Source of the DNA: Mucilaginibacter gossypiicola
GTDB taxonomy: Bacteria; Bacteroidota; Bacteroidia; Sphingobacteriales; Sphingobacteriaceae
Length of the DNA stretch: 64,000 bases
Assembly: GCF_900110105.1 (NCBI RefSeq)
Contig: NZ_FOCL01000001.1
Coordinates: 1,178,001-1,242,000, forward strand
Direction of reading: 5' to 3'
Shown here: positions 17,139 through 43,697 of the stretch, piece by piece
Layout: each line of letters opens with the position of its first letter
Position numbering within the stretch: the stretch's first letter is position 1
Position numbers and translations under genes: made by a program
Notes under the pieces: generated by a model
What the model saw: only the letters and a program-made list of their open reading frames with translations
Databases searched by the model: none
Told to the model about the DNA's origin: nothing

Positions 17139-19448
17139 CTACATTTTTTTGTTCCGAATGATAGTATAGGTGCCTGCGCTAAGTTTAATTGCGCTATATC
17201 CCTCCCTTTGCCATTGCGGTTCTATAGCCAATTGTGCCGCTGTAGGAAGGTGATCATCAATTTTAACTTCGACAGAGGAAGATGCCGGTAATCGAACAAT
17301 TGCTGTTGTACCGTTTGGAACATTGATGTTCATTACAAAACCGTCAGTATTGTTTTTAAATGATGACTTAATCAATCCCCGGATGGTAGGTACCGATATC
17401 GACGCCGATTCGAATGATGCCGGAGATGGCTCTATCAAAAAGGTTTTAAAGCCTGCTTCCAATGGTGAAATACCACAAAGCTTCTGTGCAATCACAATCT
17501 GCGCTCCGCCGCTCCACGCGTGATTGGTCGTCCCTCCACCAAAACCTTCCTCTCCAATCCCCCAACCCTCAAACAGCGTTGAATAGTTTGGATTATTCAC
17601 CATAGATGCAAATCGCCTTTTTGTTCGTTCCAGTGCATATTCACCTTCACCCATCGTAAACAACGCTTCCATTACATATTTTTCCATGTAGGGACTGGCA
17701 TGAAACTGCGTTTTAAATAGCCTGGCTATCTTCTTGTATTTGGATGAGTCGGCAATTCCTGATATAACGGCCAGTGCCTGTACCCGATCATCTGTTTCCT
17801 CTTTATATAGCGGCGATCGGTAAGCGTCACCGTCCCAGCATTTATTGTAAGCTAACTTAAGTTTCGCCATAATGGTGCGATAAACATTGGCATCCTCGCG
17901 AAAACCGAGCAGATCGGCCATTTTCGCGGCACCGTCAAGGGCCATGTAATGCCATCCCGCCTGGATTAGCCGGATGTCCTTATTATCGCCCCAATCTCCC
18001 CAAAGCCAGCCGCCCTGGCGTGTCATAGTCAACCCTTCTGAGTCGGTTTTCCATAAAGCAAGATATTTCTTTACAGCGGGATACACATCTTCAATAGTTT
18101 TACGGTCCCCTGTATTCAGGTAATAATTCCAGAAACCATAGTCACCGATACTGGCCAGCATTTGGTCTGCTAATTCAGTATCATAGTTACCGGGTATTGG
18201 CGAAAACAGCACACTGTCTTGCCGTTCCCAGCCGGCTAATTGATGGATGGCCTTTGTCATTAAAGCATGTGTGGAAGTTGAGTACGTATAAAAACTCTCT
18301 CCCATTAACAACACCGCATCCCCCCACCACTGAGCACGTTCCCGGTCGGGACAATCAAAAAAATTATCGCGCATGTTAATGTAAAGCGTGCGTTGTGCTT
18401 TTTTCCAATAAAGGTTATAAAAACTGTCGCTGCACTCGAATTTTCCTTCCGGCGTTGCATTGTAGCCTGTTTCACGGTATTTGACAGATAAAACCTTGAC
18501 ACTATGCGGAACATTAACCATTATGGCTTCACCGTTCATCCATCCGAACGACTCGTATTCCTGAAGCCCTTTTTTGGTGATGTATTCTGCCCTTATATTA
18601 TCGGTGCCACCAGCCCCGGAATGATCGGTATTGATTGACAATAGTTTACCGCCTAACGCGTCGGCTATTTTAATAACAGGGGTCATCTGCATATTATACG
18701 GCAAACGTGCAACAATGGTGTCCATAGTTTTACCGTAACGCCGCTCAAACTTTGCCTCTTTGATGCCGAAGTCTTTCCACTGGGGTATCGGCCGCTCCAT
18801 CAGTTTATTCCATGGCGCATCTCCCCAAACGCCGATTTCAGCAGCAGGAATAAATCCGGGCATTGAATATAACGGGGCTACCTGCCAGCCGGTAAGATCT
18901 TTGCGGGCATCAAACCGTATGTTCGACTCGGAAAGCCGGAAATTTGGATCCGGTTTTGAGGCCGTACCATAGGCCGGATGGACGCAGCAGCGCCACGTAT
19001 GATCACTGAACAACTCATATTTCCCGGCGCTCATATAGAAAAGAAGCCCGGAACGCCCACTATCTTTATGAGAAAAGCCATCTTTACCGAAATGCCAAAG
19101 CAATAAGGCTATTTGGTTCTTCCCACGTTTAAGATAGGCGGCAATATCAACCTTATCATAATAAGAATCACGTGGGTTTGGCCCACGCTTCAACCCACCC
19201 TCAAATATGGCCAGCTTTCCATTTATCCATAACCAATACTTAGTATCGGCACTAATGATAACCGGAGCTTCTCGGGGTGCCTCCGTCAGCACAATATCTT
19301 TACGGAAAGCAATCCAGGTGTTGGGTTGATTTGCATTTTTATCCGCAGAGGATATCCAGTGCAATTCCGGGTATTTTTCCTGGGCATTCCCTGTGAGAAC
19401 TAAAACACCTAAAACAACAGTTATCAATAATCGCTTTATTGCATCCAT
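17139..19448 (-). CDS. Secreted alpha-L-rhamnosidase, GH78-like
   Basis: A 769-aa exported glycosidase; the signal peptide ends at about residue 22 (LTGNAQ). An N-terminal beta-sandwich region (FRKDIVL, YWLWINGKL) precedes an (alpha/alpha)6 barrel. The GH78 catalytic block is DCPDRERAQWWGD, giving D365, E370 and D377, the same spacing as D567, E572 and D579 of Bacillus RhaB. YSTLFEGWG likely holds the second catalytic glutamate. It removes terminal alpha-L-rhamnose from oligosaccharides in the periplasm. I chose the ATG at 19448 (MDAIKRLLI); the upstream in-frame start adds residues before a good signal peptide and lies in a hairpin region. It is the last gene of PUL1, behind susD. Confidence 0.88.
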   Translation of the reverse strand: MDAIKRLLITVVLGVLVLTGNAQEKYPELHWISSADKNANQPNTWIAFRKDIVLTEAPREAPVIISADTKYWLWINGKLAIFEGGLKRGPNPRDSYYDKVDIAAYLKRGKNQIALLLWHFGKDGFSHKDSGRSGLLFYMSAGKYELFSDHTWRCCVHPAYGTASKPDPNFRLSESNIRFDARKDLTGWQVAPLYSMPGFIPAAEIGVWGDAPWNKLMERPIPQWKDFGIKEAKFERRYGKTMDTIVARLPYNMQMTPVIKIADALGGKLLSINTDHSGAGGTDNIRAEYITKKGLQEYESFGWMNGEAIMVNVPHSVKVLSVKYRETGYNATPEGKFECSDSFYNLYWKKAQRTLYINMRDNFFDCPDRERAQWWGDAVLLMGESFYTYSTSTHALMTKAIHQLAGWERQDSVLFSPIPGNYDTELADQMLASIGDYGFWNYYLNTGDRKTIEDVYPAVKKYLALWKTDSEGLTMTRQGGWLWGDWGDNKDIRLIQAGWHYMALDGAAKMADLLGFREDANVYRTIMAKLKLAYNKCWDGDAYRSPLYKEETDDRVQALAVISGIADSSKYKKIARLFKTQFHASPYMEKYVMEALFTMGEGEYALERTKRRFASMVNNPNYSTLFEGWGIGEEGFGGGTTNHAWSGGAQIVIAQKLCGISPLEAGFKTFLIEPSPASFESASISVPTIRGLIKSSFKNNTDGFVMNINVPNGTTAIVRLPASSSVEVKIDDHLPTAAQLAIEPQWQREGYSAIKLSAGTYTIIRNKKM

Positions 19449-19488
19449 AAATATTAATCGGGCGGTATCTGATTGGTTTAGACAATAA

Positions 19489-19516
19489 CAAGCCCGGGCT
19501 TTCATACCCGGGCTTG
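19489..19516 (-). repeat. Perfect 10-bp hairpin between susD and the rhamnosidase gene
   Basis: CAAGCCCGGG (19489-19498) and CCCGGGCTTG (19507-19516) form a perfect GC-rich stem with an 8-base loop. It lies 26 bases after the susD stop and 41 bases before the rhamnosidase start. No long T-run follows on the minus strand (TTATTGTC), so it may partly terminate transcription or protect the susCD mRNA end. Confidence 0.75.
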
Positions 19517-19541: not shown

Positions 19542-21128
19542 TTAATAACCAGGATTTTGGGTAAGATTTGGATTAGTGTTAATTTCCGCTTGCGGAATAG
19601 GATATAGTTCGTATTTGGTATTATAAGTACCTTTTACGCCACTAAACACCTGGCTTGCCGACATGCCGGCGATCTCATTCTGCAAAGTTCCCCAGCGGCG
19701 GATATCGAATACCGTGGTATAATCGCCCATCAGTTCCAGCTTACGTTCCAGTCGCACCCTTGCTTCCATATTATCGGCATCGGTATACGGGGAGGCCCCT
19801 GCCCTGGCGCGAACACGGTTGATCAGCAGTAACGCATCAGAAAGGTTACCTGTTTCAATTTCGGCCTCGGCCAGGCAAAGGACAACGTCCGAAAAACGCA
19901 TCATGATCAGATCTGTCGAGTAACCCCAGGGCGGTGAACCCGCCGGACGCGCGGTACGATCGTATTTACCAAAGGCAATACCCGAATTGATGGCCTGGCT
20001 GGCAAAAATGGCGTGATTATTCGTATCGATATAGCGCAACCTGGTTGGGTTATAAATAATGCTGTCGCCCTCGTTGGCGTTATTACCTGTATGCACCGTT
20101 TTATAGCGGCTGATCATCGTTAAATCCCTTCTTTTGTCTTTGCCCTCATACAATTGATAAAACGCATAGGTTAAGCCAAAAAAGGTTTGCTCATCGCCGC
20201 TGGTGTAGCCATTAGGCAGGGAGAAAAACGGATTAAGGTTTGCGCTGGTATTGCTTGAGCTGTAAAAAAAGCTAAAAGCCAGTACCACCTCGGCGTTCTT
20301 TTTATTGGTGATGGAATAAACATCGGCAATGTTGTTTAGCAAACCGAAATTATATTTTGCTTCGCCGGCGCCGCCTACCACTTGCTTCAATACATCCACA
20401 GCTTTTTGATAGTATGCAGTTTGGCCAAGCGGCTTGCCTGCCATTGTTAAATATACTTTGCCCAACAACGCTTTGGCGGTTCCGGCGGTAACCCTACCAG
20501 CGTCGGTAGCGCTACGGGTATCAGGCAGTTCGCTTGCAGCATAAAGCAAATCGGCTACGATAAAATTGTAGGTATCCTGTACAGATGCCCTTTTGCCATA
20601 GATAAGATTGGTTTGCGACAACGAGGTTATTTGCTGATCGATAATTGGCACGCCACCAAACAATCTCACCAAATCGAAATAAGCAAACGCTCTTAAAAAC
20701 CGGGCCTCAGCGATATACTTATTGACAATGGAAGTGTCGCTCACAGCTTTGGTGGCATTTCCGATAACGGTATTTGCACGTGCAACGCCCGCGTAATCCT
20801 GTGCCCAGATCTGATCAGCCTCACCGGCCACCATTGACTGAGGCGTACCAACAAAGCCATTCTGATCTGTACAAAAGGCGTCGCCATAAAAAGCTGCCGT
20901 ACTATACTGATGCCCGCTCTCGTTCAAACAGAAACGGTACCAGGTGGTAAAATAAGCGTTTGTATAATTTTGATAGATGCCGAGAGTAGCTTCCTTAAGG
21001 CCTGTTTCGCTGTTGAATACTTCCGAGCTGGACAGCGAAGAATACGGTGTCTCCACCAGGTTCTTTTTACATGAGGAACTGCAAATGGCTAAGCCTGCAA
21101 TTACCACTATTATATATTTAAATTTCAT
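19542..21128 (-). CDS. SusD/RagB-family outer-membrane nutrient-binding lipoprotein
   Basis: A 528-aa SusD-like lipoprotein. The lipobox cysteine is C20 (AICSSSC), followed by the N-terminal motif TPYSSLSSSEVF. The TPR-like core shows ARFLRAFAYFDLVRLFGGVPI near residue 145, a SusD hallmark. The C-terminal half carries RARAGASPYTDADNMEARVRLER, and the end is IPQAEINTNPNLTQNPGY, the standard RagB/SusD terminus. It lids the partner SusC transporter and binds glycan on the cell surface. It lies 18 bases after the susC-like frame, which carries a premature stop, while susD itself is intact. Confidence 0.95.
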   Translation of the reverse strand: MKFKYIIVVIAGLAICSSSCKKNLVETPYSSLSSSEVFNSETGLKEATLGIYQNYTNAYFTTWYRFCLNESGHQYSTAAFYGDAFCTDQNGFVGTPQSMVAGEADQIWAQDYAGVARANTVIGNATKAVSDTSIVNKYIAEARFLRAFAYFDLVRLFGGVPIIDQQITSLSQTNLIYGKRASVQDTYNFIVADLLYAASELPDTRSATDAGRVTAGTAKALLGKVYLTMAGKPLGQTAYYQKAVDVLKQVVGGAGEAKYNFGLLNNIADVYSITNKKNAEVVLAFSFFYSSSNTSANLNPFFSLPNGYTSGDEQTFFGLTYAFYQLYEGKDKRRDLTMISRYKTVHTGNNANEGDSIIYNPTRLRYIDTNNHAIFASQAINSGIAFGKYDRTARPAGSPPWGYSTDLIMMRFSDVVLCLAEAEIETGNLSDALLLINRVRARAGASPYTDADNMEARVRLERKLELMGDYTTVFDIRRWGTLQNEIAGMSASQVFSGVKGTYNTKYELYPIPQAEINTNPNLTQNPGY

Positions 21129-21146: not shown

Positions 21147-24100
21147 TTAGAAATTAGTAGAAAAACCTATGGTGTAGGTACGATAGCCTGCGTATGCTCC
21201 ATAGTCTATGCCCTGTTGTAACAGCGACTGTCCGTATGAACCAATTTCCGGATCGGCACCGGTATATTTGGTGATGGTGAAAAGGTTGGTACCGGTTACA
21301 AACAAGCGGGCGTTTTTCAGGATATTGTTTTTTGGCAGGTACCACGAAACAGTAGCCGATTTTAGCCTGAAATAACTGCCGTTCTCCAGGTAAGACGAGT
21401 TCAGATCGGCAATCGGTAAGCTTTTCTGGATGCCCGGGTAGCGAGGGTTGTTAGTTGGATTTGTCGGTGTCCAGCGATGGGCGTACCAGTCAGCAGTTTG
21501 ATTAAAGAAGATGCCCGAATAATCAGCCGTACCATCACTCAGGTAAAAACGGGTAAGGTTAACGATGGAGTTGCCCTGTGAGCCGGTGAAGAACAAATTC
21601 AGACTGAAGTTTTTGAAGCTGATATCGTTATTCCAGCCGTAAGTAAAATCGGGGTTCGATTTACCCAGCACCCGCATATCGTCGCTATTGATCTGACCGT
21701 CGCCATTCACGTCGGCAAATTTCCACTGACCGGCAATCTGACCACTTGCCGCACCTGGGTAAGGATATTTAGGCACGCCATTCACAATATCGCCGGTTTG
21801 AACCAGTCCGGCAACTGTATAGCCATAAAACAACCCGATTTCCTGCCCCGGCTTCAAGATACCAGACACACCGCCCTGCAGGTTACCGCCTAACGACACG
21901 TATTGCGGCGCTGTCAGATCGCCCAGATTAAGCAGCACGTTTTTATTATGCGAGATGGTTACTTTAGTGCTATAACGGAAAGCTCCACTTGAGACGATAT
22001 TTGCATTCACGGTTGCCTCTACACCGCGGTTACGCATTGAACCGTAATTATCCTCAACCGATCCGAAACCTGTTTGGTTAGGCAGTGATCTTGGTTGCAG
22101 AAGGCCGTCGGTTTCTTTGTTATAATAATCGAAGCTTACACTGAGTATACTTTTGATCAGACTGAAATCCAAACCGACATTGAGCTGCTTTGTACGCTCC
22201 CATGACAGGTTTGCGTTGCCCAACGTGGCCGGATAAAGCGCCGTATTAATAGTATTGGTAGTACCTGTTTGATAAAAGGCATTGCCGTATTGCGCCAGCG
22301 ACGAGTAAGGCTGAATAGCCTGGCTGCCTGTTTCGCCGTAAGAAGCCCTAAGCTTGGTGTTCGAGATCCAGTTAAACTTTTTCATAAAAGTCTCATTGCT
22401 CAGGTTCCAGGCTAAACCAATCGCCGGGAAAACACCGTATTTTTTATTTTCGGCAAAAGACGAAGCACCGTCATCTCGCACTGAAGCATTCAGCACATAG
22501 CGGTCTTTATAAGTATAATTGGCCCTTAAAAACGCCGATTGAATAACCTTTGCTTCTTTAAACGAGCCAGTGCTTTGAATTTGGGCACTGCCGATATTGT
22601 AAATACCAAAGGAAGGAATGTCGTAGCCCGAGGTTGATGTGTTCAGCATCTCCACAGTATTATGGTTATATTCAACACCACCAGTAATGTTTACGTTATG
22701 ACCGCCTTTGAATTCCCTGCGGTAATCCAGATAGGCATTGGCATTGTAGTTGTAGGTATTGGAAATGTTATTGATGCCGGACCCATTGGTGTTATAACCC
22801 GATGCAGTTGTTGCCGGAAAGAACACTTCCCTGTGCGACAGGTTTTGGTTGGTACCCAGGTTAACAATCAGCTTAAGGCCTTTCGCAATTTTGAAATCAT
22901 TCTCAATATTGGCAATCGTGAAGTCGCTATACAGGTTATCAGTCTTCTGCTGAAGTTCAGTAACCGGGTTTGAGAAAATATTGCCATCGGTAAAGCCAGG
23001 GATACCCTCGCCATTGAAGCCACTGTAATCAACCGCAACAATCGGCGAAGCCCTCAACGCGTCAAGGATAACACCATCGGAGCCTGGGAAACCATTTGAA
23101 AGCGTAATGGCCCTCGATGTTTTTTGGCGGGTGAGTGATAATTGTGCTTTAACGGTGTACCAGTTATTCACGTCGCTGCTTAGGTTAGCGCGTAACGAAG
23201 CACGGTTGTTTTGCGAAGCGAGAACGGTACCCTTATCAGTCAGATAATCGCCTGATAAATAGTAGGAGGTCTTTTCGTTGCCGCCGGAAATGTTCAGGGT
23301 ATTATCTTCCCTAAAGGCAGTACGGGTGATGGCTTTATACCAGTCGGTAGAAGAATTAAGCTGATCGATAGCTTCCTGGGTGAACGGCGCAGGGAGGCTT
23401 TGCAATTGGAAACCCTGGTTAACTACGTCGGCAAATTGCTTTTAGTTCATCATTGGATAAGGATTCTTTGCTACACCAAAAGTGGTTTTATTCACGTATT
23501 CGATCTTCTGATCCTTACCACTCCCCGATTTTGTTTTGATCAGGATAACACCATTAGCGCCCCTTGAACCGTAGATGGCAGTCGCAGCTGCATCTTTTAA
23601 GATGGTCATACTTTCAACATCGTTGGGGTTTAATCCGTACAGGCCACCGAGCTGCTGAGTGCCCATGCCTCCGGCTTCTGCGTAAGGTGGCATCGGGAAA
23701 CCATCAACCACGTACAAGGGCGTATTGTCGCCGCTTAATGAATTGTTACCGCGGATCCGCACAACGGCGTCGGTTCCAGGTTGCCCGGACAGCTCTGTTA
23801 CCTGCACACCGGTTGCTCGCCCCTGCAAAGCCTGGTTCACATCGGTGATCACCGCATCCTTGAAATCCTTTACGGAAACAGTAGAGGTAGACGACGCTAC
23901 GTTTGTTTTACTGGCCGACCCGTAACCCAATACAACAACTTCGCTCAACGAATTTGGATTATCCTGTAGGGCGACATTGATGATTGCCTGGTTGGCTGTC
24001 CTTTCAACAGGTGCATAACCTATAAAGCTAAAAACCAGCACCGCCCCCCTTTTAACTGTTATCGCGTATTTACCGTCGGTACCAGTTGAAATACCCTCTG

Positions 24101-24341
24101 TTGAGTTTTTCACACGCACAGAAACACCGGGAAGCGGTTTGCCGCTCACGCCATCAGCAACGGTACCCGATACTTTAATGGTTTGCTGTGCCGAAGCATG
24201 TGTTCCGCATATAATCAGCACCAACAGTGTGGCCATCCTACCCCACTTAAGCGGACTTTTAAAAAGGGCAAAGGGATGCGAAACCTGCGCTATCAGCGTG
24301 GATAACGGAAATCCCGGATTGAATTTGTAAAATTTTCTCAT
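21147..24341 (-). pseudogene. SusC-like TonB-dependent transporter interrupted by one in-frame TAA
   Basis: Two pieces of one SusC-type receptor lie in the same frame. Residues 1-299 (23442-24341) hold a signal peptide (ending ASAQQ), a carboxypeptidase-like regulatory domain (VSGTVADGVSGKPLPGVSV) and the plug with VVLGYGS and YVVDGFPMPP. Codon 300 is TAA (23442-23444). Translation in the same frame then continues without a shift through KQFADVVNQGF into the 752-residue barrel ending YRTYTIGFSTNF. The intact length would be 1064 codons, normal for SusC. A single base change restores a sense codon (for example TCA). There is no STN domain, which fits control by the nearby hybrid regulator rather than ECF/FecR. 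It is a recent nonsense mutation, a sequencing error, or rarely readthrough. Confidence 0.9.
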
Positions 24342-24654: not shown

Positions 24655-25815
24655 TTACTTAATCAGCAATCCGCAGATAAATTGGGCATACCACCTCACC
24701 AGATAGTCGTTAGGGTGATTGATATTGTTGCCGGTCATGTCCTGATAGCTTTTGTACCGCAATAAAGTGCTGTGCACACCGGTCATATCGGCTATTACAA
24801 TGCCATTTACAGCAAGTTTATCGAGCTCTGCTTTGTAGGACGATTGCAGCCCACTGAAAACCGAAAGCGGGTTCGCCAGTATCGGCGCAATTAAAATAAA
24901 CTCAGCACGAGGTTTTTTAACCCGGACGGCATCGATAATCCCTTTAATTTGGTTCCGGTAAACATCAGGCGATATTTTCGCAGTGCCATCGTTCATTCCA
25001 AAACCGATGATCACCAAATCGGGGTTTTCGGCAACTACCCTCGTCTGTACCGAATCCAAACCCCATTCAGCAAGCTTTCCCGGGACAGAGGTATTGGCGT
25101 AGCCGACATTATTGCCGTAATGACGGCGTAGGTTGTATATCACCTGATCCGGCCAGCTCGGCATATAAGGCGGAGCACCTTCGTAACCACTTGCATTGGA
25201 ACCGGTCTCAATACTATTACCGTAAAAAACGATCTTAATTTTTTTGCGGGCGTTTAACAGCATACCGGTATTGGGCAATTTACTGGCGGAGTATTGCGGC
25301 ACCGGCCCTTTCCATTTTTCACCTCTATCTTTAATGTAGGTAACAGATATTTGCTTTGAAGCGAAATAGGATCCCTCAGCAAATAAAATATAAGTGCCCT
25401 GCGCCTTCCCGCTAAACGAGTTGCCAGGTTTGGGTTTATTAAAAACCAAGCTATCCTTAGTAAAAAATGGAACAGTTGAATTTATGCCGAAGATCAGCCT
25501 GCCATTCTTATAATCCCAGTCTTTCCCTTGCTGAAACGTCTTACTATAATTTGTCGCCTTTACTGATAATATTTTTTTTGCCTTAAAAAGCAGCGGTGCA
25601 GAGGCAGTATCACCTTGCCTAATGACCTGTACGGTTTCATCAACAATGGTATCAGTTTTCCAAAATGGTTTGCTGTAGGTATTCAGATCGATATATTTTA
25701 CCCATGCTTCACTGGCTGTATTCTTATCGCCCGGCTTTTGCTGCGCCGAAACATTGTTAACATTTAACAACAACATTACGGTAAGCCATTTAATATCGAA
25801 AATACGGTTCTGCAT
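24655..25815 (-). CDS. Secreted SGNH/GDSL hydrolase, probable carbohydrate esterase
   Basis: A 386-aa exported esterase. A signal peptide (about residues 1-24, NNVSAQ) precedes an N-terminal beta-domain of about 150 residues, typical of acetylxylan esterase-like proteins. The C-terminal SGNH domain has the nucleophile S201 in FYGNSIETG (block I), a central glycine in NTSVPG (block II), GFGMND (block III) and the catalytic histidine in NNINHPND, where an asparagine takes the usual aspartate place. It probably removes acetyl groups from the PUL1 glycan, helping the rhamnosidase. It lies between the hybrid regulator and susC. Confidence 0.82.
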   Translation of the reverse strand: MQNRIFDIKWLTVMLLLNVNNVSAQQKPGDKNTASEAWVKYIDLNTYSKPFWKTDTIVDETVQVIRQGDTASAPLLFKAKKILSVKATNYSKTFQQGKDWDYKNGRLIFGINSTVPFFTKDSLVFNKPKPGNSFSGKAQGTYILFAEGSYFASKQISVTYIKDRGEKWKGPVPQYSASKLPNTGMLLNARKKIKIVFYGNSIETGSNASGYEGAPPYMPSWPDQVIYNLRRHYGNNVGYANTSVPGKLAEWGLDSVQTRVVAENPDLVIIGFGMNDGTAKISPDVYRNQIKGIIDAVRVKKPRAEFILIAPILANPLSVFSGLQSSYKAELDKLAVNGIVIADMTGVHSTLLRYKSYQDMTGNNINHPNDYLVRWYAQFICGLLIK

Positions 25816-25904
25816 AGGATTATTTGCGGATTAGTGCTGCAATGATAATTGGTGTAGACAAGGTCGGCAACCTTCGCCATCCCATACCATCTTCAAACCC
25901 CATC

Positions 25905-28900
25905 CTATTTACCGGTTAAAACCAACTGATTTTGTTCGCGGTATTCCTTTGGCGAACACATGTAAACCTTTTTAAACTCGCGGTAAAAATGGGACTGATT
26001 ATTAAAGCCGGTCTGGTAATAAACCTCTGATACCGTCAACGAAGTGGAGCGTAGCAGCAAGGCCGCATATTTCAACCTCAGGTGCTTGATCAGCTCAAAG
26101 GGCGTCATATTGGTAAAGGCTTTGATCTTGCGATAAAAGGTCATTTTGGTCATAGCCAGGGCTGTTTCGAGGTAACTTGCGTCGAAATCCGGATTGGAGA
26201 TATTTTCGTTGATCAGATCGACAACCCGGTTCAGGAAAGTTTTGTCATCGGCTTTGAGCACCGCATCATTTTCAAGCAAGCGCTGATCGTCTTTTTTAAA
26301 GAACATCTGAATGCGCTCGTGATATTCAATCAACTGTTTGATCTTGTTTAACAGTTCGGTTGCAGTAAAAGGCTTGGCGATGTAAGCGTCCGCCCCGGCT
26401 TCGTAGCCATCCACCCGCTGATCGGCCGATGACAAAGCCGACAGCAGCACAAACGGGATATGGCAGGTTTCCAATGTATTTTTGATGATCGAGCAAAGCT
26501 TCAGGCCGTCCATCTTATCCATCAAAACATCACTCAATATCAGGTTCGGGATGATCTTTTTTAGGATATCCAACGCCGCCTGGCCGTTTTCGGCTTCATA
26601 AACAATATAAGTTTCCTGCAAGATTTCGCGGAGCAGATGCCTGATGGAGGGCTCATCCTCGATAATAAGGACGGTCTTTTTCTCGCTATTGGACAGATCT
26701 TCAATCAAAGCCAGGTCGTTATTGATCGTTACACGATTTTCCATCACCTGCTGCGCCCCAATCGCAGCCTCAACCAGGGAAGATGGCTGCACAAGTGACT
26801 TAGGTTCGGTATAGGCGGTCGATGCACCTGCTTCCAGATTTAATGGAAGCACCGCTTCAAAATAGATCCACTGATTTTCGACTTTTACACTGATGCCGCC
26901 GCCGAGTAACTCCACCAGCTGCTTACAAAATGCCAACCCAATACCCGAGCTGATTTTAGTATCATCAGACTGGTTTAGCGTATAAAACTGTTCAAAAAGC
27001 AGGTGCAGCTGATCGGCCGGGCCATCATAATCAGAATTGGCCACCATTATCTTTAAGGTTTGGGTTGATGCATCCGCAGCAACACAGAATTCAATACTGC
27101 CATTTGGCCTGGTATATTTAAAAGCGTTCGAGAGCAAATTGAAAACGATCATTTCGATCTTATCCTTATCGCTATTGATCAGGATATCAGGAGTTATCGT
27201 TACGTCCAGGTGCAATGTTTTCTTCTCGCTGATGGGCTCAAACAGTTGCACGATCTTCTCCAATAATCCGGAGATATTGAAAGCAGATGAATGCACGGTC
27301 AAATGCCCCGACTCTGCTTTACGGAATTGCAACAGCTGATGAACACGATATTGCAAACGGAACGCCTCCTGGTTGGCGATCTGCAGGAAATTGCCGCCCT
27401 TATAGTTCGAAGTTTTGGCGTCATTTTTATAAAAGAAACGCTCTATCGATCCCAGGATCAGGGTGAGCGGGGTTTGCAGCTCATGGGTGATATTAGTGAA
27501 GAAATCCATCTTCTCCTGGTACAATTTCTTTTCCTTCACCCGGATCAGGTTCTCAACCATCAGCTTGTTTTTGATATCCTGACGCCCTTTTGTGATGCGG
27601 TAATAAATGTAGATGAGCCCAAGTACAATCAACCCATAAATGACCTTGGCAACAGTTGTAAGCCAAATATACTGACGGATCTCAACATGAAATACCTTCC
27701 GCGCATCTGACCATTCGCCCTGCCCGTTTGACCATTTGATATAAAAATTATAGTCGCCCGGCGGCAGATCATTGTAATTGACATCCGGGTTCGATCTCAA
27801 TTCGCGCCAATCGGTATCATACCCCTTCAGGAGGCAGCGGTATTGGAATTTGATATTGGTATATCCATCCGCCGGCTGCACCTTAAGGTTGAAATAATTC
27901 TCATTTCGCAGCAATTGAAAATCCTTTGACTGTTCATCGCCACGAGGTTTAATTACCATCAATTGTATCCCATCCGATGTTTTACCGGCGATATTCAGAT
28001 CGGTGACCAGCAGGTTCGACAGGTTTTTATCAATGGCAATTTCCGCAGGATTAAAATGGTTTAAACCGGCAATCCCACTAAAATATAACGCCCCCCGACT
28101 ATCTTTAAATGCCGAATTATCACTGAATTCGGCGTTCTGCAAACCATCTTCCACATTATATTGAATAACCTGCAAGTCGCTGCCATTGATCTTTGCCAAC
28201 CCGTGATTGGTGCTTACCCATATGTTGCCCGCATCATCTTCAAGGATAGCCTGCACATTATTGTTTGGCAAGCCGGTTTCGGTAGTGATCTGGTGAAAAT
28301 CAGGCTTAGATTTAACCAATCCGTCCTTATTGATCCAGTATAAACCGTTGCTCGTCCCAACCCAAACGCGGTGCCTGGTATCCCAAAACAAAGAGTGAAT
28401 ATTATTGAGATTGGCTTTATCTGATCGCGGCACCAGGTTAACAGTCTTCCCGCTCTGTTTATCGAGCAAACATAAGCCGGCAAACCGATAACCAATCAGG
28501 ATCTGATCGCCCACATCCAATAGCGCATTAATCAGGTTATTTCCCGACCTGAGAAAATGCCCACCGATATTAATATGCTGCAAATTGACCAGCTTAAATT
28601 TGCCACCGGCAAGTTTCTCTACCTTCAAACGTGCCAATCCGCCGTTATAGCCCACGTATATGGAGCTGTCTTTTTGCGGTAGTATGGCATGTGTCCTGAA
28701 AAAATCAGCATCCAGTTGAGTACCGGTTATTTGTAACCATTTAGTAAAGCTTTTTGAAACAGGGTCATAAATTGTAATCCCGTACGCATCCGAACCAATA
28801 TAGAAATTACCGTCAAAGCCCTTCTTGATGGTATAATAGGAATTATTGGTTTTGTCAAAGCTGGAATTGACCGGCTTAATCACTTCAAATCGACTCTGCG

Positions 28901-30014
28901 GCGTTGCCGGATCAATTTCTTTGATGATGCCATTATACTTAGTTCCCAGCCACAATTCGTTTTCAACCTGCTGGATGGCCTGCACATTACTTTCGGATAA
29001 AAGCGAACCCTGTTTAATCTCATCGAGGCCAAACGTATTGGGTTGGCGTTTGATCTTGAACACACCTTTATCATCGGTGCTTACCCAGAGCGTGTTGCCG
29101 GCAGTTTCCGTTAATGAATTAACCTTTACATTTTTTAAATCGGGGCAGGATCGCAGCAGATCATCAACCGGCTTAAAATTACCGTCGTACTCTTGTATAC
29201 CGTTGTATTGCCAGGTGATAAAATAGTGGCCCTGAAAATACTGCATCTCAGAAACGAAATGCTGTATTTTCTGCCGTTCCAAAACCTCAAAATCTTTGGT
29301 GATCTCAAATAGCTTGGTATCGGTCACTGCGAAAAATACACGGTGGTTAACGAGCTCAAAGATGTTAACGCTGTTATTAAAAATTCGTAACTGGTGATAT
29401 ATCTCACCTCTTTTTTCAAAAAGTCTTAAAATCCCGCCAAAACTCAAAGTCCACAGCCGGTCGTGGTCGTCCAGTTCAATCTTAGCGATCTTACCTACCG
29501 AAGCTTGGTCGAACTTAATCGGCACCATTGTGTCGTGCGCAAAATCATAATTGTACAATACTGTATCGAGCCTCAAACCGCAAATAATGGTTTTACCGCT
29601 GCCCACGGCGAGTATATAATCAGCGCTTTTCTTTTTGAGCTTGTCTTTATCCCCATTGTAAAAATAATGGGTCATAGATCCTTTCAGCTTGTCGTATTTC
29701 GTTATCCCTTCTTCGGTGCCTATCCATATGTGATGATAGGCATCCTCACGCACCCGGGTAACCACGCTGTTCACCAAACTGGATAACGATCGCGACTGAT
29801 TGCTATTGAAAGCATAAAAGGAGATACCGTTGTAAACGTCCAGACCGTCATAGGTGTTCAGCCAAAGCAGCTTATCAGAGTCTTCATATACACCGTTTAC
29901 GCTGTTATTGGCAAGCCCTGTTGTATTATCTAAATGCGTTATCACATAGTTGTGCTGCGCCCGTATCTGGTACGTACATGCTATCAGCAACAAAAAAATG
30001 ATCGCTCTTTTCAT
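25905..30014 (-). CDS. Hybrid two-component system regulator (HTCS) of PUL1
   Basis: A 1369-aa one-protein two-component system. After a signal sequence (about 1-20), two seven-bladed propellers of Reg_prop repeats (LLWLNTYDGLDVYNG, HIWIGTEEGITKYD and many more) form the periplasmic sensor, followed by a Y_Y_Y domain (about 700-780), a membrane helix near 790-810, a HisKA domain with phosphoacceptor H844 (NITHELQTPL), a HATPase (NLLSNAFKYT; GIGLAF), a receiver with phospho-acceptor D1162 (ILSDVLMD) and a C-terminal AraC-type DNA-binding domain. Such proteins bind a glycan breakdown product and activate the neighbouring PUL. All modules look intact, so it should control susC, susD, the rhamnosidase and the esterase downstream. 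Confidence 0.95.
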   Translation of the reverse strand: MKRAIIFLLLIACTYQIRAQHNYVITHLDNTTGLANNSVNGVYEDSDKLLWLNTYDGLDVYNGISFYAFNSNQSRSLSSLVNSVVTRVREDAYHHIWIGTEEGITKYDKLKGSMTHYFYNGDKDKLKKKSADYILAVGSGKTIICGLRLDTVLYNYDFAHDTMVPIKFDQASVGKIAKIELDDHDRLWTLSFGGILRLFEKRGEIYHQLRIFNNSVNIFELVNHRVFFAVTDTKLFEITKDFEVLERQKIQHFVSEMQYFQGHYFITWQYNGIQEYDGNFKPVDDLLRSCPDLKNVKVNSLTETAGNTLWVSTDDKGVFKIKRQPNTFGLDEIKQGSLLSESNVQAIQQVENELWLGTKYNGIIKEIDPATPQSRFEVIKPVNSSFDKTNNSYYTIKKGFDGNFYIGSDAYGITIYDPVSKSFTKWLQITGTQLDADFFRTHAILPQKDSSIYVGYNGGLARLKVEKLAGGKFKLVNLQHINIGGHFLRSGNNLINALLDVGDQILIGYRFAGLCLLDKQSGKTVNLVPRSDKANLNNIHSLFWDTRHRVWVGTSNGLYWINKDGLVKSKPDFHQITTETGLPNNNVQAILEDDAGNIWVSTNHGLAKINGSDLQVIQYNVEDGLQNAEFSDNSAFKDSRGALYFSGIAGLNHFNPAEIAIDKNLSNLLVTDLNIAGKTSDGIQLMVIKPRGDEQSKDFQLLRNENYFNLKVQPADGYTNIKFQYRCLLKGYDTDWRELRSNPDVNYNDLPPGDYNFYIKWSNGQGEWSDARKVFHVEIRQYIWLTTVAKVIYGLIVLGLIYIYYRITKGRQDIKNKLMVENLIRVKEKKLYQEKMDFFTNITHELQTPLTLILGSIERFFYKNDAKTSNYKGGNFLQIANQEAFRLQYRVHQLLQFRKAESGHLTVHSSAFNISGLLEKIVQLFEPISEKKTLHLDVTITPDILINSDKDKIEMIVFNLLSNAFKYTRPNGSIEFCVAADASTQTLKIMVANSDYDGPADQLHLLFEQFYTLNQSDDTKISSGIGLAFCKQLVELLGGGISVKVENQWIYFEAVLPLNLEAGASTAYTEPKSLVQPSSLVEAAIGAQQVMENRVTINNDLALIEDLSNSEKKTVLIIEDEPSIRHLLREILQETYIVYEAENGQAALDILKKIIPNLILSDVLMDKMDGLKLCSIIKNTLETCHIPFVLLSALSSADQRVDGYEAGADAYIAKPFTATELLNKIKQLIEYHERIQMFFKKDDQRLLENDAVLKADDKTFLNRVVDLINENISNPDFDASYLETALAMTKMTFYRKIKAFTNMTPFELIKHLRLKYAALLLRSTSLTVSEVYYQTGFNNQSHFYREFKKVYMCSPKEYREQNQLVLTGK

Positions 30015-30215: not shown

Positions 30216-31250
30216 ATGAATTATGTAAACAATCTATCCAGGCATATCTGCGTGGACGAGTTTTCGGCAGTGCCAAAATATCTGCAGATCTCTAAATCGA
30301 TCATCTCCGCGGTCGACACCGGCCGTATCAGCAAAGGCACCGTCATGCCTTCCATCAACGACCTCAGCGCCGAGCTTTGCGTTTCAAGGGGCACTATAGA
30401 GAAAGGCTACAAATATCTCAAAGCGATTAAAGCACTTAGCTCCTACCCGGGCAAGGGTTATTACATAGCCGATACCTGTTTCCGCAAGCAGAAAAAAGTA
30501 TGCCTGCTGTTCAATAAACTAAGTGCCCAGAAAAAGATCATCTACGACTCGTTTGTCAACGCCCTGGGCGACCGCGCATCCGTAACGCTCAATATCTACA
30601 ATAACGACTTTAAGCAGTTCGAAACACTCATCAACAACAATCTCGAAGAGTACAGTCACTTTGTGATCATCCCTCACTTTATTGAGCAGGAACAGGAAGC
30701 CTTTAAGATCATTAACTCCATCACCCGCAGCAAAGTGATCCTACTGGATAAAAAGCCGGCAGAAGTTTCCAAATACCAGGGTGCTGTATATGAAAACTTC
30801 GAGAAGGACATTTACCGCGTGCTCTGCAAGATGCGCGAGCAGGTGAGCAAATACAGTCAGCTTAACCTGCTCTTCCCCAGAGCGAGTTATTATCCGAAAG
30901 AGATAGTGAAGGGTTTTACGTTGTTTTGCCGGCAGTATGAACTCAGGTATTCGGTGATTGATAACATCGAAGCCAGCGGCCTCAATAAAGGCGAGGCATA
31001 CATTACCCTAAGTGAAGACGACCTGGTTTTGGCCCTGGAACTGCTGCAGGAAACTAATATGCAATTAGGCCGCGATATTGGAATAATCTCTTACAACGAA
31101 ACACCCATCAAAAAGTTCCTGCTGGACGGTATCACCACCATCTCCACCGACTTTAAACTACTGGGCAACTTTGCTGCCCAACTGGTGCTGGATAATACCG
31201 AGAAAGACATTGAAGTACCATTTAATGTAATCCTCAGAAACTCCTTATAA
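30216..31250 (+). CDS. GntR-type regulator with LacI-like sensor domain
   Basis: A 344-aa cytoplasmic regulator. Residues about 15-85 are a GntR winged helix (LQISKSIISAVDTGRISKGT; INDLSAELCVSRGTIEKGYK; GKGYYIADT). The remainder resembles a periplasmic-binding-protein-like sugar sensor (SHFVIIPHF, KVILLDKKP, IGIISYNETPIKKFLLDGIT). This domain pairing is common for sugar-catabolism regulators in Bacteroidota. It diverges from the hybrid regulator with a 200-base gap, and probably senses a monosaccharide released by PUL1, perhaps rhamnose. The effector is an inference from position only. Confidence 0.82.
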   Translation: MNYVNNLSRHICVDEFSAVPKYLQISKSIISAVDTGRISKGTVMPSINDLSAELCVSRGTIEKGYKYLKAIKALSSYPGKGYYIADTCFRKQKKVCLLFNKLSAQKKIIYDSFVNALGDRASVTLNIYNNDFKQFETLINNNLEEYSHFVIIPHFIEQEQEAFKIINSITRSKVILLDKKPAEVSKYQGAVYENFEKDIYRVLCKMREQVSKYSQLNLLFPRASYYPKEIVKGFTLFCRQYELRYSVIDNIEASGLNKGEAYITLSEDDLVLALELLQETNMQLGRDIGIISYNETPIKKFLLDGITTISTDFKLLGNFAAQLVLDNTEKDIEVPFNVILRNSL

Positions 31251-33768: not shown

Positions 33769-36342
33769 CTACTGCTTCAAAGCATCACTAACATCCCGCT
33801 CAAGCTCGCGGGCAGTTTCCGCTTCTGAACCACCAGCGTTTGCGATATTGGTAAAATACAAAGCCACCACATGGTTTACCGGATCAACCCAAAAGTGGGT
33901 ACCAAATGCGCCGCTCCAGCCAAAGCTTTTTTTCGCTAAAGGCTGATTTGCGGACCGGTCGCCCGTAATGACACGCACACTCAAACCCCAGTTTGCCCCG
34001 GTCGGAAATCCGCCTAAATCGCCAGGTAACTGCGGGGACGTCATTTGATTGACGATGCGCGGGCTTAAGATTCGTCGCCCGTTGTAAACGCCGCCGTTCG
34101 CCAGCATCTGAGCAAAATGAAAGTAATCGCCTATCGTACCCACTACGCCAGCCGATCCGCATAGATAAGTTGTGCCAATTGCAAAAGGATATTGATCTTT
34201 TTCCTTCACCATTCCGCTGTCGGTAGTTTTGCAGAGGGTGACAATCTTCTTCAGACCATTCAGATTTTTAACGAACCCTGTGTTTTTCATACCAAGCGGC
34301 ATTAATATCCGCTCACGCATAAACCTATCCAAAGGGTGGCCCGACACGATTTCAATAATACGCCCGCAGATGTCGAACCCGGTTATCGCGCTGTATCCAG
34401 TGCGGGTACCGGGTTGGAAATCGAGCGGCAGACGGGACAATTTCGGAATGTATGAGACCAATGTTGAGCCGGGTTCAATTGGCAATTTATTGATCTCTGT
34501 ATACCCTATGACGCCCTCACCCATTCCTGAACTATGGGTTAACAAATCATGAATGGTAACAGGCCTGCTCGCCGGCACCAAGCGGTAGTTTGAACTTGCA
34601 GAAAGCACGCCAAAAGGAGCTGCCGGATCTGGCTGGTAATTTTTAACATCATGCTCATCAACCGGCACAGCCACCTTTAAATTTTTGAATTCAGGGATAT
34701 ACTTATAAACAGGATCATACAAGCTGATTTTCTTTTGATCAACCAGCAGCAGTATGGCTGCTGCAGTTAAGGGCTTTGACATTGATGCCAGTCTGAAAAC
34801 ATCGTTGTAATCAAGCGTACGTCTTTGTTCTATATCGGCGTACCCGATAATATCTTTTAAAACTATTTTCCCGTTCTGCGCTACCAGCACAGCCGCACCG
34901 GCAATCTTTTTGTCCTTAAAACGCTTTACCAGATGCGCATGCACTTGCTGCTTTAGTTTGGCAGTGTTTAAGGCCCCCGATACATTTTTATTCGTGGCTG
35001 CCCTTAACGCAATCGACCTTATATGCACCATGCCTCCACTCTTTGAATCTGCAGCAGTATTTAGCGCAATCTTTAACCCAGCCAGCGTTCCGCTGTAAAA
35101 TGCTGAGTTTCGTAACCGGATATGATAAGTATGATACCTGGCATCCGGAATTATTTTAAACGCAATGCTGCAACTATCATTAAATACTTTGTTATTCAGT
35201 TGCCGCCAGTAAACTCTCGCTGAGTCCGCGGGACTATTGCAGGCGGCCACGATGGTCAACTCATCAGCATCTTTAGCCTTCCAGTAAATATCCGGACTAA
35301 TAAGCGCAGCTTTCGGCTTGAGTTTTACGGCGAGTTCTGACTTGATGGGCCAGCCAGCGTCTGTAGTGTTTTCGTAAAACCAGTGCCGGCGAGTGTTTTT
35401 AAACACGAACGCCGGCTGTCCCGGCTTTTTTGCATGGTGGTACACGTAATCCCGGATATTGGACACTGTACCAAGGATCAGCGTGTAATCAAAATCGTAA
35501 ACCATGTTATGGTCTATTACTTCGGTTTGATTTGGGGCGATATAGCCTGTAGCGTCCGACTTACTATCTCCTTTGAAAGTGTCTCCAAAAAATCCACAGG
35601 CAAAACGCTGTGTCCCCGGGCTCCAGATACCGAGCCCATAGTTATTTTCATCCACGTTGGCCGCCCAATTTTCCGTGGCCTGAAACTGGATATCCGGGTC
35701 GCCGGAATGGTTGAGGTTTTTGACATTCGACAGCGTATCATTGGTAAAAGGCTTATCGCCCCGGTAAGTAATAAGCCTGTGATACGGCGCATTGGTATAA
35801 ACGGCGGGTAACTCCTGCTCCCTGGCAGGATACTGGGTTTTATCCGGCCGAGAATTAACAAGGCGCGCATGTACTTTAACCGCGTTGCCATCAAGTGTTA
35901 CCCACGACTCGAAATAACATTCGCCGGGCACATTATCGAGCGGCCAGTGCATGGGGATACATTTTACGTAGATAGTTTTGCCGTCGTTGTCATGAGCAAG
36001 GATCTTAGACCGGTTACCCGCCACGTCTCCCGACTGAATAGGATTCCAGCCGATATCAATCCAATGCGGATTAGCTTTTTTGCCATTCGGCTCAAAAGGA
36101 ACAGGCCCGCTATAAAACGATAGCTGCACCTGTCTGCCCCAGTCCTTATTGTTTACTACATTTTCCAGCTTGCGTGCGTCGGCCACATAAGTGATGGACC
36201 CGCCCAGGTTCAGGTCGACACCAACCCTGATCTTTTGGTTGCTCAGATAGCTCATGCCACCCAAACTATCTCTCGAAGGCGTCTGGGCAGCCATGGCCAA
36301 AGGTGTTAAGAAAAGGCATAGCAAATGCAGGTACTTCATCAT
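33769..36342 (-). CDS. Fusion of N-terminal beta-sandwich region to serine beta-lactamase-like hydrolase
   Basis: An 857-aa exported protein (signal peptide about 1-18). Residues about 25-320 resemble a galactose-mutarotase-like beta-sandwich (GGSITYVADARKLENVVNN; WHFYEN-type aromatic patches), and 330-455 a second beta domain (DIYWKAKDADELTIVAA). Residues about 465-857 are a class C beta-lactamase/esterase domain: SxxK motif SMSK with nucleophile S520, YSAITG as the tyrosine motif, HDLLTHSSGMGEGV, and GWSGAFGTHFWVD near the end. The fused hydrolase could be an esterase acting on the glycan that the N-terminal part binds. It sits between the acylase and the beta-helix gene in one probable operon. 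Confidence 0.75.
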   Translation of the reverse strand: MMKYLHLLCLFLTPLAMAAQTPSRDSLGGMSYLSNQKIRVGVDLNLGGSITYVADARKLENVVNNKDWGRQVQLSFYSGPVPFEPNGKKANPHWIDIGWNPIQSGDVAGNRSKILAHDNDGKTIYVKCIPMHWPLDNVPGECYFESWVTLDGNAVKVHARLVNSRPDKTQYPAREQELPAVYTNAPYHRLITYRGDKPFTNDTLSNVKNLNHSGDPDIQFQATENWAANVDENNYGLGIWSPGTQRFACGFFGDTFKGDSKSDATGYIAPNQTEVIDHNMVYDFDYTLILGTVSNIRDYVYHHAKKPGQPAFVFKNTRRHWFYENTTDAGWPIKSELAVKLKPKAALISPDIYWKAKDADELTIVAACNSPADSARVYWRQLNNKVFNDSCSIAFKIIPDARYHTYHIRLRNSAFYSGTLAGLKIALNTAADSKSGGMVHIRSIALRAATNKNVSGALNTAKLKQQVHAHLVKRFKDKKIAGAAVLVAQNGKIVLKDIIGYADIEQRRTLDYNDVFRLASMSKPLTAAAILLLVDQKKISLYDPVYKYIPEFKNLKVAVPVDEHDVKNYQPDPAAPFGVLSASSNYRLVPASRPVTIHDLLTHSSGMGEGVIGYTEINKLPIEPGSTLVSYIPKLSRLPLDFQPGTRTGYSAITGFDICGRIIEIVSGHPLDRFMRERILMPLGMKNTGFVKNLNGLKKIVTLCKTTDSGMVKEKDQYPFAIGTTYLCGSAGVVGTIGDYFHFAQMLANGGVYNGRRILSPRIVNQMTSPQLPGDLGGFPTGANWGLSVRVITGDRSANQPLAKKSFGWSGAFGTHFWVDPVNHVVALYFTNIANAGGSEAETARELERDVSDALKQ

Positions 36343-36391
36343 GATGAACTACTATTGGATTGTTTACAGATTAAATCAGCTTACTCTTTGC

Positions 36392-36407
36392 CGGGCTTTA
36401 AAGCCCG
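36392..36407. repeat. 16-bp perfect palindrome between acylase and serine hydrolase genes
   Basis: CGGGCTTTAAAGCCCG is a perfect palindrome in the 70-base gap, 6 bases from the acylase stop codon (36413). It has no T-run on the transcribed minus strand, so it is unlikely to be a full terminator there; on the plus strand TTTCTTTATT follows. A role in transcript processing is possible. Confidence 0.5.
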
Positions 36408-36412
36408 TTTCT

Positions 36413-38482
36413 TTATTCTTTGATAAATGTATCTCCCTTTTTAACCTCTGTATATTCAATATGTCCGGCCAGGTCTTGCGGATAAAACCAGGCGTCGCGC
36501 AGCTTCTTTTCTGAGAAGAACTTTAACTGATCGCCGTTATGAACCGATTGTTTCTGCGAGGAATTTCCATAGCTCATAAGCACTTTTGCACGCACAGTTT
36601 TGCCAAACTCTATCACCCCTACCCATGAATCGCCTGTGTTTACGGTTTCGGTTTTACTGCCGGGATTGCCGGATGCCACCCTGAATACCCCCAGCCATTC
36701 TCTCGCGCCATTCGCAGGCAGATCGACACCATTTGCCCTAACGCGCAGATAGTCCCCCCAGGGTACTGATAAACTTCCGAAGGCGGATTTTATTTGTGCT
36801 GATACGCGTTCCAGCGATTTTACCGATTCCTGGATATTATTCAATCCAGAGGGTGTAGTATTTGGGTTATTGCGATCCCAGGGTGTTGTATAATCAATGT
36901 TAGTTTGCATTGCCCAGGCATAGAACAGTGTCATGCCCCTGCTGTCGCCGTCGGATTTTCTATCCCACTTAGCCAACACCTGTTTGGCTTCCCACAATAT
37001 AGGCGACGATGTTGTATCGATGGCCGCAAGCAGGTCATCCAGCAACCGGTCGGCCAGCTCCACATGGGTCGACAGCTTATAATCTACCAAATGATCGAAA
37101 GTGATACTGCTATCGGCCATCAGCATATTCACAGCCCGCTGCGACCGTAAAGGCATCACATCTGGTGCAATATAGGCAGGGTATCGATTCTTATCCAGCT
37201 CACGCGGCAGGGTAACCGTCCATGGTGGGTCATTGCTGTTTTGTAGCCATCCCGAAGCAGGGTTTTTAAGCTTAGGCAGCTCATCGTAACTTAGATAGCT
37301 CTTCCAGATATATTTTGACGAGTCTCCCTTAACCATCAGTTGCCAGTCGCTAAAATTACCGAACGGCCGGCGGGGCACCTGACCGTTAAACAGGTAAAAG
37401 ATATTGCCCTTTTTATCGGCATAAAGCACATTCCAAAATGGGATTTGCAGTGTTTTCAAAGCAGCCTCAAAGTGGTTAAAATCATGACTGTTGGCCATTT
37501 TCCACCATTCCAGGATTGTATTAGGGCTGTCCATCCCGGCAGCTTTTAGAGCGATAGCTTTTTTGTCGCCCATTTTAAGTACCGGGCCTTGCACCGAACT
37601 GTAGCACTTTGAATATTGCGGACTAAGCTTGCCATCGGCCTGTTTTACCCAAATCGTATCCGGGCGTTCCTTAAACGGAACGTTTTTGCCATCGAGCAGG
37701 TAACCACCATCGGTAAGCGTAAGCACAAATGAGTCAGCATTATCGAGCGTATTGTTGGTATGCGTCCAACCGAGGTCTTCATTAAAACCAATGGAGATGC
37801 CAGGTATCCCCACCAACTCAGCACCGTATATTGGGGTGCCTTTCAGCGTGAGTTCGCTTTCAAAAAAAGTAAACTCATCGGCCCAGGGCAAATGCGGATT
37901 TTGCACGAGCATTGCATTGCCGGATGCAGATCGTTTGGGCGCTATAGCAATTGCGTTTGAGCCGGCCTCCTTCCAATTGGCCACTAATCCCAAATCCAGG
38001 CCGGCTGTAAAACGCGTAACAAATACATAAAGACCTTGCAGGTTAACATCGTCGGAGGTTACGGGCAAAACCGCTTTATTCTCGTCGGCAACCGCTTCGG
38101 GATGGGCTTTTACATAGGCATTCATTCCATCGGTAAATGAACGGATCATCAGCTTCAGTTCCGGATCCTGACTTTTGCTGAATTTCACAGCGATAGCCGG
38201 GAAATTAAACCGGTGCACAAGCTGATCCGACGGTACAAAAGCCGGCCCCCAGTAAGCCGCAGCTTTTCCCCGCGCCCTGCCATACATTTTTAATACCAGG
38301 TTAGCATGCGACTGCATTTCGGCCCAGCCCTGTGCAAAAAACAGGTCGCCCTCATTGTTTGCCGTAATGTGTGGCACTCCCCACACATCCCACGTGATCT
38401 TTGCCGACTGACTATAAGATATCCCCGGCAATAAAACCGCGACCAGCAGAAGGGTTAAAAGATATTTAGTTTTAAATCTCAT
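36413..38482 (-). CDS. Penicillin acylase-family amidase (Ntn hydrolase)
   Basis: A 689-aa exported Ntn hydrolase. Signal peptide about 1-23 (LLPGISYSQ). The small-subunit part has ITWDVWGVPHITANNEGDLF and FAQGWAEMQSHANLV. The autocatalytic cleavage point and nucleophile is S175 in EAGSNAIAIAPKRSASG, followed by AMLVQNPHLPW, the standard family layout. The reaction is hydrolysis of an N-acyl amide; members act on penicillins, acyl-homoserine lactones or other N-acyl compounds. Among glycosidases it might deacylate an N-acylated sugar or a peptide-linked substrate, but no specificity can be read. I chose the ATG at 38482; an in-frame ATG at 38518 would overlap the upstream gene. Confidence 0.85.
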   Translation of the reverse strand: MRFKTKYLLTLLLVAVLLPGISYSQSAKITWDVWGVPHITANNEGDLFFAQGWAEMQSHANLVLKMYGRARGKAAAYWGPAFVPSDQLVHRFNFPAIAVKFSKSQDPELKLMIRSFTDGMNAYVKAHPEAVADENKAVLPVTSDDVNLQGLYVFVTRFTAGLDLGLVANWKEAGSNAIAIAPKRSASGNAMLVQNPHLPWADEFTFFESELTLKGTPIYGAELVGIPGISIGFNEDLGWTHTNNTLDNADSFVLTLTDGGYLLDGKNVPFKERPDTIWVKQADGKLSPQYSKCYSSVQGPVLKMGDKKAIALKAAGMDSPNTILEWWKMANSHDFNHFEAALKTLQIPFWNVLYADKKGNIFYLFNGQVPRRPFGNFSDWQLMVKGDSSKYIWKSYLSYDELPKLKNPASGWLQNSNDPPWTVTLPRELDKNRYPAYIAPDVMPLRSQRAVNMLMADSSITFDHLVDYKLSTHVELADRLLDDLLAAIDTTSSPILWEAKQVLAKWDRKSDGDSRGMTLFYAWAMQTNIDYTTPWDRNNPNTTPSGLNNIQESVKSLERVSAQIKSAFGSLSVPWGDYLRVRANGVDLPANGAREWLGVFRVASGNPGSKTETVNTGDSWVGVIEFGKTVRAKVLMSYGNSSQKQSVHNGDQLKFFSEKKLRDAWFYPQDLAGHIEYTEVKKGDTFIKE

Positions 38483-38511
38483 TTTGTTTGAAGCTATTTT
38501 GCGATTCGAAC

Positions 38512-40914: not shown

Positions 40915-41227
40915 CTATATGCTTATTGTTATTTGGTTTATTGGCGCACTTAAAATGGGTTCATTAAGGACGTACAATGCTAAGCTTAGATGGGGCGGAC
41001 GGCAACCCACACAGTCTATTGGAGCCCGATTAAAAATGCAATTTTGGGATGGCTCCCAGAATTACTGAATAGCTCGTGTGTTACATAAACCTTTCTAATT
41101 CAAACCTGCAATATGTTAAACGGCTGTTTAGGTAGCTTTATAGTATTGGGCACAATCAGGCACCCGACTCCGGGAACGTTCCTTTTGCCGGAAATGTGTG
41201 ATACCTTGCAATGTAAAAATACAATAC
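40915..41227. other. Intergenic region upstream of the divergent GH35 gene
   Basis: This 313-base gap lies between two minus-strand GH35 genes and must carry the promoter of the downstream operon. I see no coding frame. An imperfect inverted repeat GGAGCC ... GGCTCC spans 41021-41056 with an inner AAAAT/ATTTT pairing, but no T-run follows it on the minus strand. No LacI-type motif was found here. Confidence 0.4.
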
Positions 41228-43570: not shown

Positions 43571-43697
43571 TAATGTAAGTTTTAACTGTATTAACCGTTT
43601 TTTGGATGGTTTTAATGAGCGGGGAACCACTAAAAACATGGATTCCGCCTGCTTTGAGCTACAATTGTAAAGAAATAATGATCCCCAAAAAATAGCT

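Follow-up and report, generated by a model that had tools for sequence, protein, structure and literature searches.

Does a single in-frame stop codon in a SusC transporter gene mean that the cell has lost the transporter? The question is raised by a PUL in the window, which is the whole stretch of 64,000 nucleotides of Mucilaginibacter gossypiicola DNA that was analysed. Read directly, the letters tta at 23442-23444 of the forward strand are TAA on the reverse strand. Translation of the SusC frame on that strand (21147-24341, 1064 codons) gives this TAA, at codon 300, as the sole internal stop, and the residues around it (NPYPMMN-stop-KQFADVVNQGF) lie in a single frame throughout. The locus contains the following features.

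17139-19505, reverse strand: alpha-L-rhamnosidase (6-hairpin and C-terminal domain), intact, from domain matches
19542-21128, reverse strand: SusD partner (PF07980 and PF14322), intact, with a lipoprotein-type N-terminus (lipobox by eye)
21147-23441, reverse strand: SusC barrel piece after the stop; its natural end is also TAA
23442-23444, reverse strand: in-frame TAA, codon 300 of the SusC frame
23445-24341, reverse strand: SusC N-terminal piece of 299 codons, with a signal peptide region (by eye), a CarboxypepD_reg-like domain, the plug and the SusC signature
24655-25815, reverse strand: GDSL-type esterase/lipase, intact, from domain matches
25905-30014, reverse strand: hybrid two-component regulator (Reg_prop, Y_Y_Y, HisKA, HATPase, receiver, AraC-type HTH), intact
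30216-31250, forward strand: GntR-type regulator with a LacI-like sensor domain, from domain matches

With an X at the stop, the SusC frame matched TIGR04056 (SusC/RagA) with 816 bits, above the cut-off of 368; profile positions 1-981 were all covered. This full-length match above the cut-off and the adjacent susD, with PF07980 and PF14322, place the gene in SusC/RagA. Pfam identified CarbopepD_reg_2, Plug and TonB barrel domains in the frame, and the solved SusC homologue 8aa4 aligned with it over 43-1064 at 470 bits. The SusC signature (TIGR04057) was matched at residues 241-271, on the N-terminal side of the stop, and the barrel at residues 438-841, on the C-terminal side. Thus, the stop separates the plug from the barrel. 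All of these domains are common to the TonB-linked outer membrane transporters of TIGR04056, from which the window copy differs by its internal stop after the plug. The original prediction, that one in-frame TAA splits an otherwise intact SusC, is confirmed by the translation and the full-length profile match. Its description of SusD, the regulator, the esterase and the rhamnosidase as intact is also borne out, since these proteins and the GntR-type regulator all had their expected domains and uninterrupted frames with no internal stops.

The codon was compared in related SusC genes, a check that had been proposed with the prediction. A protein search, in which 7998 candidates were scored, listed 120 matches; the 752-aa barrel piece of the window gene itself was set aside, and the best of the 119 non-self matches listed was 68% identical over 96%. 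From these, 43 relatives were chosen for the SusC alignment. The stop column holds an amino acid in all 43, and the column itself is not invariant. In the genus, the nearest three relatives among the matches listed (G102, G147 and G081) were 64-68% identical and uninterrupted. The same stop was found in none of the 43 aligned relatives and in none of the 55 other SusC matches of the genome. An internal stop that is absent from all 43 relatives, the nearest three uninterrupted, is one of the marks expected of a nonsense pseudogene.

Several observations bear on whether the two pieces could be a real split transporter, each piece being its own protein. The break coincides with the border between plug and barrel. 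In addition, the longest open reading frame of the barrel piece starts with TTG at 23405 and encodes 752 aa, and a 752-aa barrel protein from this same contig is present in the protein database. Short plug-bearing SusC pieces also occur elsewhere, and the nearest of these, P0122 (64% identical, 276 aa, from a 5.9-kb contig), stops near the break as well; its final 8 residues fall outside the alignment. Against this, no recognisable signal peptide was seen when the N-terminus of the 752-aa piece was read by eye, a split at this site was found in none of the 43 full-length relatives, and several of the short matches carry the name "partial." The 120 short matches listed had projected ends scattered over 260-560 with no sharp peak, in a search that favours lengths close to that of the query. 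For example, the fullest 20-residue bin (280-299) held 19 ends, and the bins 300-319, 320-339 and 380-399 held 11, 13 and 14. A genuine split transporter is therefore extremely improbable.

The rarity of such stops was assessed in the genome, a draft assembly of 8.23 Mb in 28 contigs, and in the genus. An internal stop was present in one of the 56 TIGR04056 matches of the genome, namely the window SusC. One of the 92 SusD matches was flagged for an internal TGA, and this candidate for a second broken PUL gene was rejected because the match merely ran past the natural end of the gene. The genus scan covered 149 genomes, with five first-look candidates scored per genome, and gave at least 150 TIGR04056 matches. 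Two of the 150 listed were flagged, the window SusC and one in G119; the latter was rejected as a second broken case since its TAA lies upstream of the likely start. A collapsed paralogue that gave a mixed consensus was also rejected, because no other stretch of the genome is near-identical to the 501 bases that surround the stop: the other 21 genome matches cover only 47-120 of these bases at 70-83%.

These counts also bear on the possibility that the stop was introduced by faulty base-calling or assembly, the gene of the living strain being intact. A lone lesion without other decay is the pattern that an error would also give, and an assembly in 28 contigs is a draft. The observations are also compatible with a mutation gained in culture. 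However, base-call or assembly errors of this kind are rare in this assembly, as no internal stop was found in the matched stretches of the 55 other SusC matches or in those of the 91 barrel-domain, 12 PF17389 (11 above the cut-off) and 11 PF17132 matches of the genome, and the single SusD flag was a natural gene end and not an error. In addition, the frame is preserved, so a single indel error does not account for the stop. An error is a possible explanation but a less likely one than a real mutation.

A third alternative is that ribosomes pass the TAA, through leakiness or with a suppressor tRNA, and that full-length SusC is made. In its favour, the frame downstream of the TAA is intact and its constraint is unremarkable, and ARAGORN called one tRNA-Stop(TTA) in the genome and a second in G014 (L112), on a chimeric copy of the same type. 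However, TAA terminates 26 of the 36 open reading frames of the window, susC included (39 minus two that are antisense to longer frames, with the two susC pieces joined as one), and is internal in none of the 55 other SusC matches or the 43 relatives. The tRNA-Stop(TTA) call itself falls on a degenerate copy of tRNA-Val. The tRNA survey gave at least 57 Rfam matches, from the best 150 of 549 first-look candidates scored, and these stretches were run through ARAGORN; over the 57 matches, two stretches had no gene and one was the tRNA-Stop(TTA). This copy scored 38.8 bits in Rfam versus 71.8 and 69.8 for the two adjacent tRNA-Val. Two acceptor-stem positions are missing from it in the Rfam alignment, and its anticodon loop is enlarged, with the TTAC of tRNA-Val still inside. 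As the sole TTA call was this degenerate copy, no credible suppressor tRNA was seen among the stretches run through ARAGORN. Read-through is very unlikely.

The copy lies downstream of a small GIY-YIG gene. At L060:1501-2230 (G000 contig 5, about 111 kb), the order is two tRNA-Val genes flanking a partial copy, then a small GIY-YIG gene, then a chimeric tRNA-Val copy in which the anticodon arm has been replaced. Seven of the 149 genus genomes, the source genome included, carry the chimeric arm. On six chimeric loci, ARAGORN called Stop in two, tRNA-Ile in one (G108) and nothing in three (G007, G008 and G064). Some chimeric copies have no 5' half, and in G145 the arm occurs in tandem arrays with about 350 bases per unit. 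From this arrangement, the chimeric copy and the GIY-YIG gene together look like a mobile GIY-YIG/tRNA element. In our reading the chimeric copy is probably a remnant tRNA of this element rather than a suppressor. That the pair is instead a mobile ochre suppressor, giving low-level full-length SusC and a leaky, suppressor-dependent PUL, is scarcely credible. In the parts of the open-access literature available to us, nothing on a GIY-YIG/tRNA element was found beyond one paper on a phage homing endonuclease.

If the stop is real, decay that followed it might be visible in the rest of the gene. In relative-rate comparisons of the window with two relatives, with a third as outgroup, the counts were 110 versus 95 and 99 versus 86 for SusC (chi2 1.1 and 0.91). 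For SusD they were 53 versus 48 and 62 versus 49 (chi2 0.25 and 1.52), with residues after 457 omitted, where the frame of the outgroup L033 breaks. The window lineage was faster in all four comparisons and significantly so in none. The window SusC deviates at 4 of 184 columns that are otherwise invariant, and the nine comparators with no neighbour above 72% identity deviate at 0, 1, 3, 3, 3, 6, 7, 9 and 10 such columns. Ranked against all 43 comparators, the window SusC is fifth highest for lost invariant residues. Relaxed selection was therefore rejected, as the rates were non-significant and the number of lost conserved residues was mid-range among equally isolated comparators. The break in the outgroup lies at L033:12053-13641 (G081 MAG), where susD was matched in two pieces, 1-457 and 468-528, and straight translation breaks. 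Thus, the L033 susD carries a frameshift or an assembly error.

No second lesion was found in the window SusC frame. A stop is created by 377 of the 9567 possible single changes in this frame. Under a simple equal-rates model, a second stop would be expected (95%) once neutral drift after the first had exceeded about 0.024 changes per site. With assumed indel rates this bound drops to 0.007-0.011 changes per site. Since no second stop is present, the stop is either young or else not real.

Taken with these results, the best explanation is that the TAA at 23442-23444 is a recent nonsense mutation that would cost the cell this one transporter, to which we assign a probability of roughly 70%. The original prediction had offered recent transporter loss, a base-call error and read-through; the first is the best supported and the last is poorly supported. 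Under a recent nonsense mutation, the N-terminal piece would be exported and, with no barrel, would form no channel. If translation began at an internal start, the resulting barrel would remain in the cytoplasm, short of the outer membrane, because no signal peptide can be recognised on it. Sensing and the enzymes would persist after loss of the transporter, with the rest of the locus so far undecayed. The gaps between SusC and susD and between susD and the rhamnosidase are 18 and 36 bases, and given this close spacing the downstream susD and rhamnosidase transcripts may fall, if polarity acts in the operon. The mutation could have occurred in the wild or during culture prior to sequencing. 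Recent nonsense pseudogenes in bacterial accessory genes have one stop, an otherwise open frame and intact neighbours. The window SusC has the same one stop, open frame and intact neighbours, and is likely an ordinary kind of recent gene loss.

The locus was also compared with related loci. A homologue of the GntR-LacI regulator directly adjoins susC in two relatives (L031 and L032). These loci hold homologues of the GntR-LacI regulator, susC and susD, then a GH106 rhamnosidase, which follows a GH3 gene in L031 and follows directly in L032. Thus, the window shares the regulator, susC and susD with these rhamnose-linked PULs and differs in that its rhamnosidase is of another family and that a hybrid two-component regulator and a GDSL gene lie between its GntR regulator and susC. 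The gene content of L031 and L032 points to a rhamnose-containing glycan as the probable substrate of the locus, and the guess of such a glycan in the original prediction fits their GH106 rhamnosidases. In L033, no match to the GntR regulator was found, and susD is followed by an MGH1-like glycoside hydrolase, a polysaccharide deacetylase and a SASA esterase. In seven loci from four relatives, of which four loci span only some 6 kb, nothing matched the window hybrid regulator, GDSL esterase or rhamnosidase (E 1e-10). At 24655-30014, the GDSL esterase and the hybrid regulator separate two genes whose homologues adjoin in L031 and L032, and this arrangement suggests a possible change of regulator in this PUL. 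Elsewhere in the window, at 33769-43639, a beta-lactamase-fold protein, a penicillin-amidase-family protein and two GH35 beta-galactosidase-type enzymes are encoded consecutively.

A further step in the original prediction, that a silenced PUL would indicate niche change, was unsupported. No internal stop was found in 55 of the 56 SusC matches of the genome or in any of its other rhamnosidase matches. Loss of this SusC need not imply a change of niche, because the genome retains a further 11 PF17389 matches and several loci with GH106.

Natural nonsense mutations in a susC were not seen in the portions of the open-access literature that could be consulted. In Bacteroides fragilis within people, 16 genes are reported to evolve in parallel, and 6 of them belong to the SusC/D family (PMC9393564). 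Nonsense mutations have been reported in a PUL anti-sigma gene and not in susC (PMC11501099), and engineered stops have been made in Sus enzymes (PMC11633381). The parts of these three papers that were available contained nothing matching the window susC. The case is tidy yet of a common sort. It also carries a caution, as gene lists could record this PUL as whole or report its SusC as two separate genes. If the stop is real, the PUL would have been caught just as its loss begins: the transporter would be gone, the sensors and enzymes are intact, and the genome has 55 further SusC genes.
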